Shown here piece by piece: positions 189 to 16,338 of a DNA stretch of 23,717 nt (within the stretch, counting starts at the first letter, position 1; each line of letters starts with the position of its first letter). Source of the stretch: a virus; IMG/VR virus record IMGVR_UViG_3300032236_000576, positions 1 through 23,717 of that record. The stretch is one strand, 5' to 3'. The notes beneath the pieces were generated by a model. It searched no databases. It saw only the letters and a list, made by a program, of their open reading frames with translations, and was not told where the DNA came from. The translations under genes and the position numbers were made by a program.

Positions 189-538
189 TAGAACGGCGCA
201 CCGTATTTGCGTAAGTCATCCTCGTCAACAATACGAGGAGTTACAGCCTCAGCTCGTGGCCCGAACGACTTCTCAACAATCACAGTCGAAGCTGAAACGT
301 GCAAATTGTAACGAGTCTGCCCCTGGTATTCCTCAGCAACAGTTTTCTGTGTGCCAACAACAGTGATCAGGTCACCCTCAGCCGGTAACGCCTGGTCACC
401 AACCCAAACAGTAAAGAACGTGCGGCCAACAGTCTGCCAGTCACCGTTCTCATCCTTCTTGGAGTGGCGTTCAACAACCTTGACACCCTTGCTGCCTAGA
501 ACACGCTCGACGATACCTTTTAGTTTTACTTCAGCCAT
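188..538 (-). CDS. SSB-like OB-fold single-stranded DNA-binding protein
   Basis: This 116-residue protein probably coats single-stranded DNA during phage replication and recombination. Residues 40-48 (TFFTVWVGD) and 54-88 (GDLITVVGTQ, then a tyrosine-bearing hairpin and a VSASTVIV strand) follow the order of strands in bacterial SSB OB-folds. The C-terminus has an acidic stretch (VDEDD) and ends in GAPF, recalling the acidic partner-binding tip that ends in PF in bacterial SSB. It is shorter than cellular SSBs, which often exceed 150 residues. The start has a clear GAGAGGA ribosome site at about 548-554, and the gene follows the helicase block. The SSB call is by pattern, not search. Confidence 0.75.
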   Translation of the reverse strand: MAEVKLKGIVERVLGSKGVKVVERHSKKDENGDWQTVGRTFFTVWVGDQALPAEGDLITVVGTQKTVAEEYQGQTRYNLHVSASTVIVEKSFGPRAEAVTPRIVDEDDLRKYGAPF

Positions 539-882: not shown

Positions 883-2115
883 TTATTTGATTCTTGAGTA
901 ATGGCCTTCGAAACCAAACTGCAAAACATCAGTCTGGCCGTGACGATTCTTAGCTACATTCATCGTCAAAACATTCGGCTGATCCTTGTCACGGTGCAAC
1001 AAAATCACAACATCCGCATCCTGCTCAATCGAACCCGAGTCACGCAAGTCACTCATTTTCGGCATCGCCTCTTTACTGCCCTCGACGTTACGGTTCAGCT
1101 GCGCCAACACAATCACCGGCACACCCAAATCCTTAGCCAACACCTTCAACGCACCAGTCACCATAGTCATCGCCTCATAACGATTCCGACCCAACTGCAC
1201 GTCAGCAATCAAACCCAAATAGTCAACAACCAAAGCCTTCAACGGAACACCCTGGCGTTTGATAGACCGCGCAAAGTTGCGAATCGAAGCCAACGACTGA
1301 TTACCACGGTCGTTTATTGTTAGTAGGTTTTGCAGCTCACTCGCCCGAGCATCAATGCGGTTTTTCTCAACAGTTCCAATCAGGCCACGATCTAACGAAT
1401 CCATCGGAATCGACAACACCTGGCTAACCAAACGGTTCATTAGTTCACGCTTAGACATTTCAAGCGAATAAAACGCAACAGCCCCAGACTCCTCACCCTT
1501 CGGCAAAACGTTTGCGTGACGAGCCAACCCAAAAGCCAACTGCAAACCCACCACAGTCTTACCAACACCAGGTCGCGCCCCGATAACGTAAAGCCCACCC
1601 TTACGGAACCCATTCAGCAAGTGGTCAAGTTTCCCGATACCGCTAGAAGGGTTTATTACATACTCGTCAAGGCTCGCCCGATACGTTCTCAAGCTCGACG
1701 GCAAATACTCCACCTCGTCAGCCACAGTAGTCAGTTGCAACAAATCCAACTGCCGATAAGCCGACTCCAAAACCTCATCACCCGACAAGTCCGATACGGC
1801 CTCCTCAACCAACATCGTGCCAGTCTGCTGCAAACGACGTTTCAGCGCGGCCTCACGAACCTTGCTGGCATAAAAAACGGCAGTCGAAACAGTCGGACAC
1901 TGGCTAGTGCATTTAGCCAGGTAATCGGTAGGGAATTTATCACCCATCGAAATTAGGTCAATCGGATCACCAGCACCGGCGCGTTTAGCAAACTCAGTCC
2001 AAACCTTCTCAGCCATAGGTTCAAAGAAATCCGCAGCTGAAAGTTCAACCTCGTCAAAAGTGCGAGACCCACCCAAAAGGACAGCACCAATAAGTGCCTG
2101 TTCGATACTCACCAC
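883..2115 (-). CDS. dnaB: DnaB-type replicative DNA helicase
   Basis: This 410-residue protein unwinds the replication fork as an ATP-driven ring. The RecA-like core shows Walker A GARPGVGKT at 179-187, SLEM with the catalytic glutamate at 217-220, Walker B ALVVDYLGL around 294-301 with D298, the AQLNR sensor at 338-342 and VAKNRHG near 387-393. The N-terminal about 130 residues correspond to the shortened DnaB N-domain and linker, so the protein is slightly smaller than cellular DnaB (about 450-470). It starts at GTG (2115) or the adjacent GTG (2112) and overlaps the stop of the initiator gene, implying translational coupling. The phage has no visible polymerase here, so it probably loads the host replisome. 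Confidence 0.95.
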   Translation of the reverse strand: MVSIEQALIGAVLLGGSRTFDEVELSAADFFEPMAEKVWTEFAKRAGAGDPIDLISMGDKFPTDYLAKCTSQCPTVSTAVFYASKVREAALKRRLQQTGTMLVEEAVSDLSGDEVLESAYRQLDLLQLTTVADEVEYLPSSLRTYRASLDEYVINPSSGIGKLDHLLNGFRKGGLYVIGARPGVGKTVVGLQLAFGLARHANVLPKGEESGAVAFYSLEMSKRELMNRLVSQVLSIPMDSLDRGLIGTVEKNRIDARASELQNLLTINDRGNQSLASIRNFARSIKRQGVPLKALVVDYLGLIADVQLGRNRYEAMTMVTGALKVLAKDLGVPVIVLAQLNRNVEGSKEAMPKMSDLRDSGSIEQDADVVILLHRDKDQPNVLTMNVAKNRHGQTDVLQFGFEGHYSRIK

Positions 2116-2780
2116 TGCACCCGATTCTCAGGCTTGACAAACCATTCATCCATAACACGAGTCGAATAAGCACCCTTGTTGAATTTGTCAGCGTTAGCCA
2201 TCCAGGTGCGGAACCTGGCAGCCATATCCTTGACAGACTTTTCTTTGCCGTTCGCAATCAAGTAATCAATCATCAAAGCAAGTTCAGCATCGAGGTTTGC
2301 GTTAGGGTATTGAGCTTGAAGTTTTGTTCGCTGATCGTCAGGCAAAGACCAATCATTTTTGAAGCCTTTTTCACTTTTTGCGCTTAAAGGTTCTTTAATG
2401 GTTAATATTATGTTTTGCGAGACACCTGTTGTCTCCCCTGTTTTACCTGAGTTGTCTCCCCTGACTACCTGAGTTGTCTCCCCTGGCAGATTATTTACCC
2501 AATCTGTCTCCCCTGAAACAAGCACCCAATACCGGTTCGCTTTGTATTGAGAATCGCCTGGTGCAGCGTTCAATTCGACACGCAACTCACCTAGCTCGAC
2601 AAGGGTTTGGATATCGCGTTGCACTGAGCGTTCAGAAGCGTTCGCGTAACGAGCCAGAGTCGCTTTAGACGGCCAAGCACCTTGATCGCCTTGATGGTTT
2701 GCAATGCCGAGCAGGACAAGTTTGGCCCTACCGGTTGCTTTGGAGTTGTTCAGAACGGCTGAAATAATTTCTATCGACAT
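2109..2780 (-). CDS. Winged-helix replication initiator / helicase-loader-like protein
   Basis: This 223-residue protein probably binds the phage origin and delivers the helicase encoded directly downstream. Residues 30-68 (GAWPSKATLARYANASERSV and on to the LVELGEL wing) form a typical winged helix-turn-helix. A flexible Gly/Thr/Glu-rich linker at about 90-125 follows, then a helical C-terminal domain ending RVMDEWFVKPENRVQW. This layout (N-terminal wHTH, linker encoding repeats, C-terminal partner-binding domain, helicase next door) matches lambda O or DnaD-type initiators, but I cannot name a family. The linker DNA contains iteron-like repeats. The start codon overlaps the preceding stop as TAATG. 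Confidence 0.75.
   Translation of the reverse strand: MSIEIISAVLNNSKATGRAKLVLLGIANHQGDQGAWPSKATLARYANASERSVQRDIQTLVELGELRVELNAAPGDSQYKANRYWVLVSGETDWVNNLPGETTQVVRGDNSGKTGETTGVSQNIILTIKEPLSAKSEKGFKNDWSLPDDQRTKLQAQYPNANLDAELALMIDYLIANGKEKSVKDMAARFRTWMANADKFNKGAYSTRVMDEWFVKPENRVQW
2351..2515. other. Candidate phage replication origin (iterons plus AT-rich segment)
   Basis: The four iterons at 2430-2515 sit beside an AT-rich stretch at about 2351-2418. The part at 2391-2415 is almost entirely A and T. Iterons next to an unwinding region, inside the initiator gene and upstream of the helicase gene, is the arrangement of the lambda origin within gene O. The assignment is inference: the binding protein and unwinding have not been shown. 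Confidence 0.5.
2430..2515 (-). repeat. Four iteron-like direct repeats inside the initiator gene
   Basis: The plus-strand 11-mer TGTCTCCCCTG occurs exactly at 2430-2440, 2453-2463, 2475-2485 and 2505-2515, starting 23, 22 and 30 bases apart. The two middle copies extend to ACCTGAGTTGTCTCCCCTG. Read on the minus strand, three copies encode GGG GAG ACA (GET), while the copy at 2453 is in another frame (AGG GGA GAC AAC). The conservation is therefore in the DNA, not the peptide. Confidence 0.9.
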
Positions 2781-5877: not shown

Positions 5878-6054
5878 ATGGTGAAGAAAAACCCCGACGG
5901 AACGTTTGACGTTATTTGTGAGACTTGCAACGGCAAACTCAGCGACTATTTACTGCCGCACAAGTATTTGGTCAACACGGCCGACAAAGCCAGCGAACTT
6001 GCCTGGTCAAACGGTTTTAACACAACACTGACGAGGTGCAGTTATTGTGTCTAA
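5878..6054 (+). CDS. Small zinc-ribbon protein, first gene of the rightward pair
   Basis: This 58-residue protein is on the plus strand. Two CxxC pairs, CETC at 14-17 and CSYC near 54-57, form a probable zinc ribbon that brackets a helical middle. The start is well supported by AGAGAGGA at about 5864-5871 ahead of the ATG. The downstream WhiB-like gene begins eight bases before its stop, so the two are made together. The family is not recognised. A DNA- or RNA polymerase-binding accessory to the WhiB-like regulator is a position-based guess. Confidence 0.7.
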   Translation: MVKKNPDGTFDVICETCNGKLSDYLLPHKYLVNTADKASELAWSNGFNTTLTRCSYCV

Positions 6055-6325
6055 AGCAAACCACCTCTACACCGAGCTGATCAAAGCAATCCAATCCGTT
6101 CACAACGACATTCCCTGCAAATCAGACCCAGCCAGTTGGGAAGATGACAACAACGGTCGAGACCACATCCAAAACCGAAATCAAATCGCCTACGCCAAAC
6201 TGCTATGCAACGAGTGTCCAATAATGGTTTTGTGTGGCGAATACGCAATCACAGCAAAAGAACCAACCGGTGTGTGGGGAGGAATGTCCACCGTCGACCG
6301 CGAAAAACTGCTAACATCAACTTAG
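6047..6325 (+). CDS. WhiB-like Fe-S transcription regulator
   Basis: This 92-residue protein has the complete WhiB layout: a first cysteine in IPCKSD (C24), LCNECPIMVLC giving C54, C57 and C63 (CxxC-x5-C), the YA segment, and the turn GVWGGM at 75-80 before a short tail. These four cysteines hold a [4Fe-4S] cluster in the family, and the proteins bind the primary sigma factor region 4 to change promoter choice. Phage copies are known in mycobacteriophages, where one is linked to superinfection exclusion. It starts at GTG, with GAGG ten bases upstream, and overlaps the preceding gene. It places the host among Actinobacteria. Confidence 0.95.
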   Translation: MSKANHLYTELIKAIQSVHNDIPCKSDPASWEDDNNGRDHIQNRNQIAYAKLLCNECPIMVLCGEYAITAKEPTGVWGGMSTVDREKLLTST

Positions 6326-7309: not shown

Positions 7310-7474
7310 TTAGTCTTTGTTGCGCAACGGAAAAGATAGCACCCAAATCGCTATGACTCCAATAATCATCCAACCTACAACGGCCTTAGCTGATCCTTCG
7401 AGAACAATCCAAGCAACAAACATTCCCAACAGAGTCCACAACTGACTCAGCAAGTCTTTCAAAAAACGTTTCAT
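7310..7474 (-). CDS. Second small membrane protein, holin-like
   Basis: This 54-residue ORF was read from the sequence between the PA14 gene and the endolysin. Two hydrophobic helices (about 12-26 and 30-48) are joined by a short EGSAK turn, with a basic N-terminus (MKRFLKD) and a short charged end (RNKD). Its ATG overlaps the PA14 gene stop as TAATG. Location and shape fit a holin, an antiholin or a partner of the 92-residue protein after the endolysin. The family is not recognised. Confidence 0.7.
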   Translation of the reverse strand: MKRFLKDLLSQLWTLLGMFVAWIVLEGSAKAVVGWMIIGVIAIWVLSFPLRNKD

Positions 7475-8673
7475 TAGTTTCTCCTTCTAATCGTCGGTGC
7501 AGACAACGCGACAGCCGAAGTGACAGCGTTCACCGCAGCACCAGTAGCAACCACAGCAGCCACAATTTCTTTTTTTGCTTTAGTTCGGTGAGCAGGTGAC
7601 ATATCCGAACCAAGATTCCCTAACGCGTTTATAGCGTTCGTAATGCCCACAACGGTTGCACCCAAAACAGGCACGTTAGCCACAGCAGGATCAACAACAA
7701 TATCGTCGGCTTGTGCGGCCACATAAAGTTGCGCCAACGCCTGGTTGTATGCAGGTGAGTCCTCGACCGTTGTTGCCAAAGTTTGTTGCGCCGCAGTTTG
7801 AAGCTCGATTACCTGTGTCGAAGTCAAAGTTTGAGGGTCAATTTGTGCCGGTGCCAGGTCAACAATCGACGGTTTCGTTACAGGTGCTACAACAGGCGTA
7901 GGAGGCACGACAACGACAGGTGGTATAACCACAGGCTTAGGAGGTGCAACAGGCTCAGGCGGCGTTACAGGCGTTATTGGAGGTATTACAGGAATCACAG
8001 GCGGTTCAACGACGGGAGGAACGACCACTGGAGGCTCAATCGGCGGCACAACCACTGGCGGCTCGACAACCGGCGGCTCAACAGGAACAACAGGAGGCAC
8101 GACCACAGGATCAGGCACAGAAACCGAATAGAAGCTCGACGGCACAGTGGCCCAAGTTGCACCGTTATCAGGCGAATAAGTCAAAGTAACGTTAGCCCCA
8201 CCAGTAAACTCGTAATACCAGGCATCGAGCGCGTAAGAGTGTCCGCCAACAATCGGAACATCAGGATAAACGTTCCCCCAACGACCCTTCAAAACCCAGT
8301 CGTTCGAAATCACCGGCACACCATCAAGCGACAACCAAAAACCATCATCAGCCCAACCCTGAAAAGCGTAATTGCCCGAATCAGGAAACGTCACAAAACC
8401 TGTGTAATGAATCAACACAAACTCTTGCCGACACCCACCAACAACGCCCCCGTTATTGTCATCAAACATTTGGTCAATCAAATCAACGTGAGACCAAGCA
8501 CCCTCGCAAAGCGTATAAGGTTGACGATCAGGAGTTGTCACAGGGTCATAAGTGTAAACATCAACGTTCAGGCCCGACACAGTTTCGGCCTGAGCAACTG
8601 GCGTAGAAATCAGCGAAAACAAGCTCAAAAAAACTGCCGCCGATACAGCTGCGAATCTTCGCAGCACACCCAT
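7474..8673 (-). CDS. Secreted PA14-domain protein with Pro-Val stalk
   Basis: This is a 399-residue protein if started at the ATG at 8673, which overlaps the XhlA-like stop as TAATG. The longer frame to 8751 runs through that gene. Residues 1-29 form a signal peptide (MGVLRR, hydrophobic core, PVAQA cleavage site). Residues about 33-185 look like a PA14 carbohydrate-binding domain (HYTGFVTFPDSG, WADDGFWLSLDG, YYEFTGGANVTL). Residues 188-268 are a PPVV-type stalk. The rest is helical, ending in a hydrophobic Ala/Val segment and RRRN. A Sec signal on a phage late protein suggests a surface or extracellular role, such as host surface modification or adhesion. A virion minor tail protein is the alternative. 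Confidence 0.75.
   Translation of the reverse strand: MGVLRRFAAVSAAVFLSLFSLISTPVAQAETVSGLNVDVYTYDPVTTPDRQPYTLCEGAWSHVDLIDQMFDDNNGGVVGGCRQEFVLIHYTGFVTFPDSGNYAFQGWADDGFWLSLDGVPVISNDWVLKGRWGNVYPDVPIVGGHSYALDAWYYEFTGGANVTLTYSPDNGATWATVPSSFYSVSVPDPVVVPPVVPVEPPVVEPPVVVPPIEPPVVVPPVVEPPVIPVIPPITPVTPPEPVAPPKPVVIPPVVVVPPTPVVAPVTKPSIVDLAPAQIDPQTLTSTQVIELQTAAQQTLATTVEDSPAYNQALAQLYVAAQADDIVVDPAVANVPVLGATVVGITNAINALGNLGSDMSPAHRTKAKKEIVAAVVATGAAVNAVTSAVALSAPTIRRRN
7870..8112 (-). repeat. Low-complexity Pro-Val repeat coding segment
   Basis: This part of the PA14 gene encodes about 80 residues of irregular PPVV, EPPV and VVPP units. The DNA is correspondingly repetitive and produces long Arg-rich shadow frames on the plus strand. 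It probably forms an extended rigid stalk between the PA14 domain and the C-terminal region. Confidence 0.85.
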
Positions 8674-8894
8674 TATTTTCCTGTTATCCCTTTGATAATT
8701 ACGAACACAATTACAGCCGACAAAGCCGAAGAAGCAATCGAAGTAATCCAAGCCGACTTATACCTGGCACGTTCCAACTCGCGCAACCTGTCCTCGTGAT
8801 CGGCAATCTGGTCAATCTTTGACTCGATGACGGCAAGTTTGCGGTCGATACGGTTTAGCAGTTCCGAGTTCGTCGGCTGTTTTTCTTCAGGCAT
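8673..8894 (-). CDS. XhlA-like coiled-coil membrane protein
   Basis: This 73-residue protein has an amphipathic helix with heptad spacing (LLNRIDRKLAVIESKIDQIA, residues 12-31, continuing to about 44) followed by one membrane helix at about 49-68 and a short KGITGK tail. That is the layout of the haemolysin XhlA family, which acts with small holins in lysis of Bacillus prophages. It overlaps both neighbours as TAATG. The lysis link is from the family and from the nearby endolysin; a tail-associated membrane function is possible. Confidence 0.75.
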   Translation of the reverse strand: MPEEKQPTNSELLNRIDRKLAVIESKIDQIADHEDRLRELERARYKSAWITSIASSALSAVIVFVIIKGITGK

Positions 8895-15153: not shown

Positions 15154-16338
15154 CTATTTTACCGCACTCAGTAAACGCCCTAAGACAGGTTGCCATTGTT
15201 CCTTGAACACTTTATCCGAGTCATACTCCAAAGCCTTCTCACGAGCCGCCTGTGACCGATACTTGCCCTTCTGGTAGGCATCCTCCAACGCCAAAGCAAT
15301 CTCCATAACGTTAGGAGTGTTGAACCAAGACTTTTGTGGCGCATCCCACAAAGGTTGGCCCTGCACCTTCCAAGAATCATCAGACAACAATTCTGGTGTC
15401 GCCGCATAGTCCGAACCGATCACGCGAGTTCCACAAGCCTGAGCTTCAATCGTGGCCAAACCAAAGCCTTCACCCAACGAGGTTGCCAGGAGAACATCCA
15501 TACCGGTATACAACGCGGCCACAGTCTGCTGGTCGATACCATAACGGTAAGCCACAGGATCAACAAAAGAAACTTTATTCTTCGGCAAACCCACAGCCTC
15601 CAACAAGTCAAACAAGTTCACACCGCCCACAGACCCAAACGGTTCCGAATGAATGTAAAGCAAAACGTCATCGTGATTCTGAGCAAAAATGCTAAACGCC
15701 AACAGGTTCACATCCCAAGCCTTACGCATCGGATAAACACCCTTGTTCGCCGCATTGATACCCACAACAAACTTGTCCTTCGAATCCAAGTGTTCCTCGA
15801 TAGGTGTGCCGTCAGGCAGCTTGAACGTAGGCTTGAAAACTTTTCTTGTATCAATCGCGTGAGGAACATATTCAGCCTCTAACCCTGCGCGTTGCATTTG
15901 TTCCAAACCAAACTTGCTCATCGCAATCGGTGTCACGTTATCGCGGCGCAACCACTTCAAAACCTTTGCCGGAATAGGTGAGTGATCCACAGGAGTCCAC
16001 GAACCAATCCTGCCCAACTTGTCATAACCCAAACCCTCAAACACCCAAGCATCGTAAAGAGTAATCAGACACGAAGGCAAGTCAGGGTTCATATTCGCCC
16101 AGTGCTGTGCGTGTAGTGGAATCACGTCATTGCTGTAAGGGTCACTTCCCCTGGCATAGTGCGGAATCTTGCCAACAGGGGAATCCCAAACAGTGTTCAC
16201 ACCCTCAAGGCCATAATTGCTTATCGAAGCAACCTTGTAACCTGCACGTTTCGCCTGAATCAAAAATTCGGCAGTCTGTGTTCCGTAACCTGTCGGCGCG
16301 GTCGGACTGTTTGAAGCCCACGCAATAACACCACTCAT
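15154..16338 (-). CDS. GT-B glycosyltransferase (GT4-like) inside the head module
   Basis: This 394-residue protein transfers a sugar from an activated donor. The C-terminal half has the GT4 signature GEGFGLATIEAQACGTRVIG at 289-308 with E290 and E298 (E-x7-E), and a PELL segment after it. Around 187-235, KDKFVVGINAANKGVYP and LLYIHSEPFG follow the domain crossover. The N-terminus starts with a GYGTQTAEF loop that fits the nucleotide-sugar fold. It has its own GAGAGG site at 16345-16350 and lies after the terminator that follows the capsid gene. Position between capsid and connector suggests that the virion itself, rather than DNA, is the target. The acceptor is unknown. Confidence 0.85.
   Translation of the reverse strand: MSGVIAWASNSPTAPTGYGTQTAEFLIQAKRAGYKVASISNYGLEGVNTVWDSPVGKIPHYARGSDPYSNDVIPLHAQHWANMNPDLPSCLITLYDAWVFEGLGYDKLGRIGSWTPVDHSPIPAKVLKWLRRDNVTPIAMSKFGLEQMQRAGLEAEYVPHAIDTRKVFKPTFKLPDGTPIEEHLDSKDKFVVGINAANKGVYPMRKAWDVNLLAFSIFAQNHDDVLLYIHSEPFGSVGGVNLFDLLEAVGLPKNKVSFVDPVAYRYGIDQQTVAALYTGMDVLLATSLGEGFGLATIEAQACGTRVIGSDYAATPELLSDDSWKVQGQPLWDAPQKSWFNTPNVMEIALALEDAYQKGKYRSQAAREKALEYDSDKVFKEQWQPVLGRLLSAVK

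Follow-up and report, generated by a model that had tools for sequence, protein, structure and literature searches.

A candidate phage replication origin inside the gene of its own winged-helix initiator

Positions 2382–2515 of the viral DNA analysed here (the window, meaning the whole stretch of 23,717 nt) very probably act as a phage replication origin lying inside the gene of the phage's own initiator, a judgement based on sequence comparison and extending to the whole of the mechanism proposed below. The window thereby offers a putative intragenic origin of the lambda O and P22 gene 18 type. The locus has the features by which an intragenic iteron origin is recognised, namely a gene of initiator type, at least three phased internal repeats, selection at the DNA level, a flanking A/T-rich stretch, a helicase gene next door and a repeat word that travels with its DNA-binding domain; beyond this anatomy, the word is uniform within each locus. 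An earlier note, made from the letters of the window, had suggested a candidate origin at this place, and every prediction of that reading that sequence can test holds.

In the proposed mechanism, the N-terminal winged helix of the initiator (about residues 1–90) would bind four phased CAGGGGAGACA iterons, the iteron-bound array would open the adjoining A/T-rich stretch, and the C-terminal domain would deliver the phage's DnaB-like helicase, the product of the next gene, to the opened strand. The codons of the iterons would specify a flexible linker in which a wide range of sequences is acceptable, which would let the DNA word evolve together with the DNA-binding domain. Binding, opening, helicase loading and the start of replication at this place are inferred from the anatomy and from the precedents of lambda, P22, pSK41 and pPR9.

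The initiator gene and its repeats in the window

Four exact copies of TGTCTCCCCTG, as the earlier note had stated, are present on the plus strand (Table 1), and there are none elsewhere in the window; after dinucleotide shuffling of the window, the mean is 0.01 copies. In gene-strand form (CAGGGGAGACA) they start at nt 266, 296, 318 and 341 of the 672-nt gene, that is, in steps of 30, 22 and 23 bp, which include the main spacings of 22–23 bases originally proposed. They form the sole direct-repeat cluster with more than two copies across the whole window, and no dyad symmetry in these direct 11-mers is obvious by eye. The copy at nt 318 is indeed in a different codon frame, reading AGG GGA GAC (RGD), and the remaining three read GGG GAG ACA (GET). 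When the protein was held fixed and codons were drawn from the window's own usage, none of 20,000 synonymous randomisations gave any 11-mer in four copies, and the synonymous probability of each copy taken singly is 0.0004–0.0012.

Table 1 Features of the candidate origin and its surroundings (window positions unless stated otherwise).
Feature	Position	Strand	Basis or remark
DnaB-like replicative helicase gene	883..2115	(-)	Overlaps the end of the initiator gene by a few bases
HTH_36 winged-helix replication initiator gene, 223 aa	2109..2780	(-)	Pfam, PHROG, structure model
Replaced cassette (winged helix, iterons and A/T stretch)	2366..2780	(-)	Comparison with L004
A/T-rich stretch, three 11-bp units AACATAATATT AACCATTAAAG AACCTTTAAGC	2382..2414	(-)	Candidate unwinding element and second repeat array
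Iteron 4, CAGGGGAGACA	2430..2440	(-)	Exact-match search
Iteron 3, CAGGGGAGACA, different codon frame	2453..2463	(-)	Exact-match search and frame reading
Iteron 2, CAGGGGAGACA	2475..2485	(-)	Exact-match search
Iteron 1, CAGGGGAGACA	2505..2515	(-)	Exact-match search
DnaA-box loci L099, L100, L102, L104, L105, L108, L111	gene nt 321–510		Mostly directly 5′ of the iterons

The claim of a neighbouring 25-base stretch of almost pure A/T stands in part. Such a stretch does adjoin the repeats and contains the most A/T-rich of all 25-mers in the window, but this best 25-mer has 21 A/T of 25 (84%), short of almost pure; at the 60-bp scale the stretch ranks second in the window. GC skew does not change direction at 2.4 kb, but this is a weak test, as almost all genes point the same way.

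The protein encoded by the gene matches Pfam HTH_36 (PF13730) with an E-value of 5e-10 and 39.5 bits (curated cut-off 25), as well as several PHROG 'replication initiation' families, among them replication initiation O-like (E 1.6e-20). A structure model, for which the input was the window and viral-locus sequences only, has a winged helix at residues 1–90 and a separate small helical C-terminal domain at residues 148–200, with residues 89–137 modelled at low confidence or as unstructured. The iterons are encoded at residues 89–117, which agrees with their earlier placement in the linker-coding part of a winged-helix initiator gene. A PDB sequence search with the family profile gave no meaningful match, and the fold search retrieved generic winged helices (Foldseek best E 0.02; VIA Z of about 9 for LexA); the fold is therefore not taken to indicate any specific function. 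Pfam DnaT weakly matches the C-terminal domain in four of 19 family members (best E 0.0014), the window protein not being among them. The adjoining helicase gene is identified by DnaB_C (E 5e-65), the DnaB N-terminal domain (E 2e-8) and the PHROG DnaB-like helicase family (E 1.3e-81).

An alternative is that the repeats serve as an operator by which the initiator, or some other repressor, controls its own operon: winged-helix proteins commonly act as repressors, and LexA and MarR proteins are among the solved structures closest in fold. We consider this improbable as a replacement for an origin, since the repeats are found some 265 bp into the gene and beside an A/T-rich stretch, the gene that contains them is classed as a replication initiator and adjoins a DnaB-like gene, and origins are known at this position in lambda, P22 and pSK41. 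Autoregulation could coexist with origin function.

Several other genes of the window could be assigned. The only clear rightward gene (6047–6325) is of WhiB type (E 3.8e-13), which suggests an actinobacterial host. Among cellular genomes, the closest relatives were loci of Arthrobacter, Microbacterium, Curtobacterium and kin; the hosts of the phage are probably aquatic actinobacteria. A glycosyltransferase group 1 gene (15154–16338; E 2.9e-10) is located amid the structural genes, and a PA14-domain protein with a long P/V-rich repeat stretch (7474–8751; E 1.3e-7) is possibly a sugar-binding virion or lysis protein.

Repeats in relatives and the exchanged cassette

Two scans of viral contigs provided 92 sequences with the complete region, including the window (five were fetched twice, leaving 87 distinct). 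All 92 have three to five repeats at the same gene position, nearly all 21–23 bp apart; relatives that have retained the initiator have also retained the repeats, with position and phasing preserved. Two or more reading frames are used in 79 of the 92, eight of which use all three, and a single frame in 13. The frames of successive copies are most often 1,1,2,1 (n = 54), followed by 1,1,1,2,1 (n = 9), 1,2,1 (n = 8), 2,0,1,2 (n = 7) and 1,2,0,1 (n = 1). Together with the synonymous randomisation in the window, this bears out the earlier proposal that selection acts on the DNA.

The repeat word varies by locus (GGGGAGACA, GGGGTGACA, GGGGTGTCA, AGGGTGGACA and others) and is near-uniform inside each, with a mean of 0.13 mismatches of nine within a locus versus 1.35 at the same position between loci; when copies were permuted among loci, the minimum was 0.88 mismatches. 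As the loci are related by descent, counts across them are not independent. The process is well illustrated by L022, the closest relative that shares the 30-22-23 layout, in which all four copies read GGGGTGACA versus GGGGAGACA in all four of the window. Relative to L022, A replaces T in 4/4 copies of the window, changing V to E in three and remaining silent in the fourth, which on sequence comparison is a concerted change of the DNA word, blind to reading frame. The helix-turn-helix also changes with the word: in L005 and L082, whose words end in TCA, S stands at the position of R in the NASERSV of the others, and members of the AGGGTGGACA group read MSERSVRRK in place of ASERSV(K/Q)RD. This covariation is suggestive only, because the loci are related by descent.

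These data bear on an alternative in which the linker needs G-E/V-T motifs as protein and the DNA repeats merely follow. Three of the four window copies do share the GET frame, and some relatives keep all copies in frame at 21-bp steps, but one copy in the window and copies in the 79 multi-frame sequences are out of frame, yielding RGD, QGGQ or GWT instead. Moreover, codon choice as the cause is rejected by the synonymous randomisation, and the peptide varies between relatives while the DNA word within a locus stays uniform. On the frame data and the randomisation, a peptide-level repeat is rejected in the main, and we regard it as very unlikely to account for the array.

Iteron symmetry differs within the family. 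Terrestrial relatives (L099–L110) have dyad iterons of the GGGTGAC-N6-GTCACCC type and the aquatic clade has direct 11-mers, so that site symmetry seems, from these sequences, to have changed within one initiator family.

The link between the repeats and the DNA-binding domain is most evident in L004, a sister contig set apart from the 92 sequences, whose DNA is 95% identical to that of the window on both sides of a replaced cassette (Table 1). The breaks are at the start codon (window 2778) and just past the A/T stretch (about 2366–2370), and inside the cassette no similarity between L004 and the window is detectable. The L004 cassette (L004 3602–4294) encodes another HTH_36-like domain (E 0.0024) and has different, palindromic repeats, CGGAAAATCCG, CGGAAAAACCG (twice) and CGGATAATCCG, with its own A/T-rich stretch after them, and the C-terminal domain and the DnaB gene are retained. 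The earlier note had named related phages that keep the initiator and lack the repeats as evidence against an origin; in L004, the one relative found to lack these repeats, the winged-helix domain is gone as well. Judged from this comparison, the repeat word travels with the DNA-binding domain. L004 also has a Mom-type DNA-modification gene (L004 4291–4923; Pfam Mom E 2e-42) between its initiator and DnaB genes, which is absent from the window.

Repeat clusters serve packaging, partition or recombination in some phages, but that the array is a site for a host or other phage factor in such a role is scarcely probable, since this does not predict the joint exchange of repeats and winged helix in L004 between neighbour genes that are 95% identical.

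A second repeat array and DnaA boxes

The A/T-rich stretch of the window consists of three 11-bp units (Table 1) with 12 of 22 possible lag-11 matches, which 60 of 5000 synonymous randomisations equal or exceed; in the window alone, the case for a degenerate form of a second array is weak. Over 23 non-redundant relatives, lag-11 identity is 0.351 (z 5.4 versus synonymous shuffles and 7.1 versus base shuffles), with AAC[CAG] pairs peaking at 11 and 12 bp. Most terrestrial relatives have AACC units 11 bp apart directly after the last iteron, also in G+C-rich DNA.

A blind DNA scan of viral contigs for three AACCRTC units at 11-bp steps found 119 stretches (L117–L235), of which 84 are on the sense strand inside genes matching the profile of the window's initiator family, versus 0/14 inside such genes for a scrambled core at the same spacing. 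At neighbouring spacings, stretches inside initiator-family genes numbered 30 of 46 (10-bp steps), 44 among the 120 matches listed (12-bp steps) and 3 of 5 (13-bp steps). The first unit of the array is in frame 0, 1 or 2 in 49, 29 and 34 of 112 genes, respectively, and array-bearing contigs span 28–73% G+C. Matches to HTH_36 were obtained for 62 of 82 non-redundant array proteins, and matches to PHROG initiator families for 64. L004 keeps a C-terminal domain of the window type and has no array, indicating that the array belongs with the DNA-binding cassette, not with the C-terminal domain. The 11-bp AACC array was looked for in the lambda and P22 origins and was not found there. A separate pattern, TTATCCACAGGGGTG, was discarded, since about as many matches as were listed among viral contigs are, by estimate, to be expected by chance for a 15-mer in so large a collection.

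Some terrestrial relatives have DnaA boxes as well as iterons. A perfect TTATCCACA is found inside the initiator gene in 7 of 16 loci from actinobacterial genomes (Table 1), in most cases immediately 5′ to the iterons, as in GAGTTATCCACAGGGGTGTCG. Nine boxes occur in 10.4 kb of these genes and none in the 83 kb of flanking DNA (binomial p 2.7e-9, the loci being related), and with the looser TTWTNCACA one flank site appears. This distribution suggests that some relatives join host DnaA to the phage origin within the gene. The window has no exact TTATCCACA, and its four one-mismatch sites (4444, 7676, 11031 and 15983) are at chance level.

A strand-opening or helicase-loading element is the natural guess for the role of the AACC array. 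Whether the observations extend to a common rule appears evenly balanced: HTH_36-type phage initiator genes would then share a second origin element 3′ of the iterons, AACC(A/G)TC every 10–12 bp, conserved as DNA across hosts and reading frames, as a code for strand opening or helicase loading that many phages use and that is degenerate in the window, to which some terrestrial relatives would add DnaA boxes before the iterons. Searches of the open-access literature turned up no account of the AACC array, nor one of DnaA boxes within the initiator gene of a phage, and both look new.

Relation to known origins

The plan is that of lambda gene O, as first proposed from the window. Within gene O, the annotated lambda iterons begin at nt 349, 369, 393 and 416, in steps of 20, 24 and 23 bp, and likewise occupy three frames (0, 2, 2 and 1), so that frame-independent iterons belong to the type specimen. 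In gene O, as in the window, four repeats are placed mid-gene with an A/T-rich 3′ side (ori-lambda; PMC7466680). The gene next to O encodes a helicase loader, P, and lambda has no DnaB of its own, whereas the corresponding gene of the window encodes a DnaB-like helicase. Lambda iterons are also 18 bp long with dyad symmetry, and because those of the window are 11-mers in direct orientation with no obvious dyad, the window initiator is not lambda O proper.

The nearest layout to the window is that of P22 gene 18 followed by gene 12, which encodes a DnaB-type helicase. Gene 18 of P22 and of phage L contains intragenic repeats with a word particular to each phage and precedes a phage DnaB-type helicase gene (PMC8022706), although the repeat words and initiator sequences differ from those of the window. 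Among staphylococcal plasmids, pSK41 (RepA_N) has its origin, with four Rep boxes, central in rep, where the coded part is dispensable as protein, and in pPR9 a domain plus origin cassette of about 500 bp with an HTH_36 domain (pfam13730) replaces that of pSK41 and supports replication (PMC5703833). This natural swap of an HTH_36 domain with its origin parallels the cassette swap in L004. The two plasmids differ from the window phage in their antisense-RNA copy control, in the primase-binding C-terminal domain of pSK41 and in that no DnaB-like gene of their own is described, while the phage has one.

In iteron plasmids with DnaA boxes, such as RK2, P1 and pSC101, the origin resembles the one proposed here in having phased initiator repeats next to an A/T-rich region of opening, but it usually lies outside the initiator gene. 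The terrestrial relatives listed in Table 1 share DnaA boxes with origins of this type, unlike the window, which is without an exact box.

If confirmed, the AACC array and the intragenic DnaA boxes would help to locate origins in many uncultured phages and would bear on how phage origins open. The candidate origin itself would extend the lambda-type plan, in which an origin lies inside the gene of its reader, to phages of aquatic actinobacteria. It would also provide a natural data set on a single DNA word that has changed several times along with its reader, across codon frames, so that the specificity between initiator and origin may be tested by sequence comparison.
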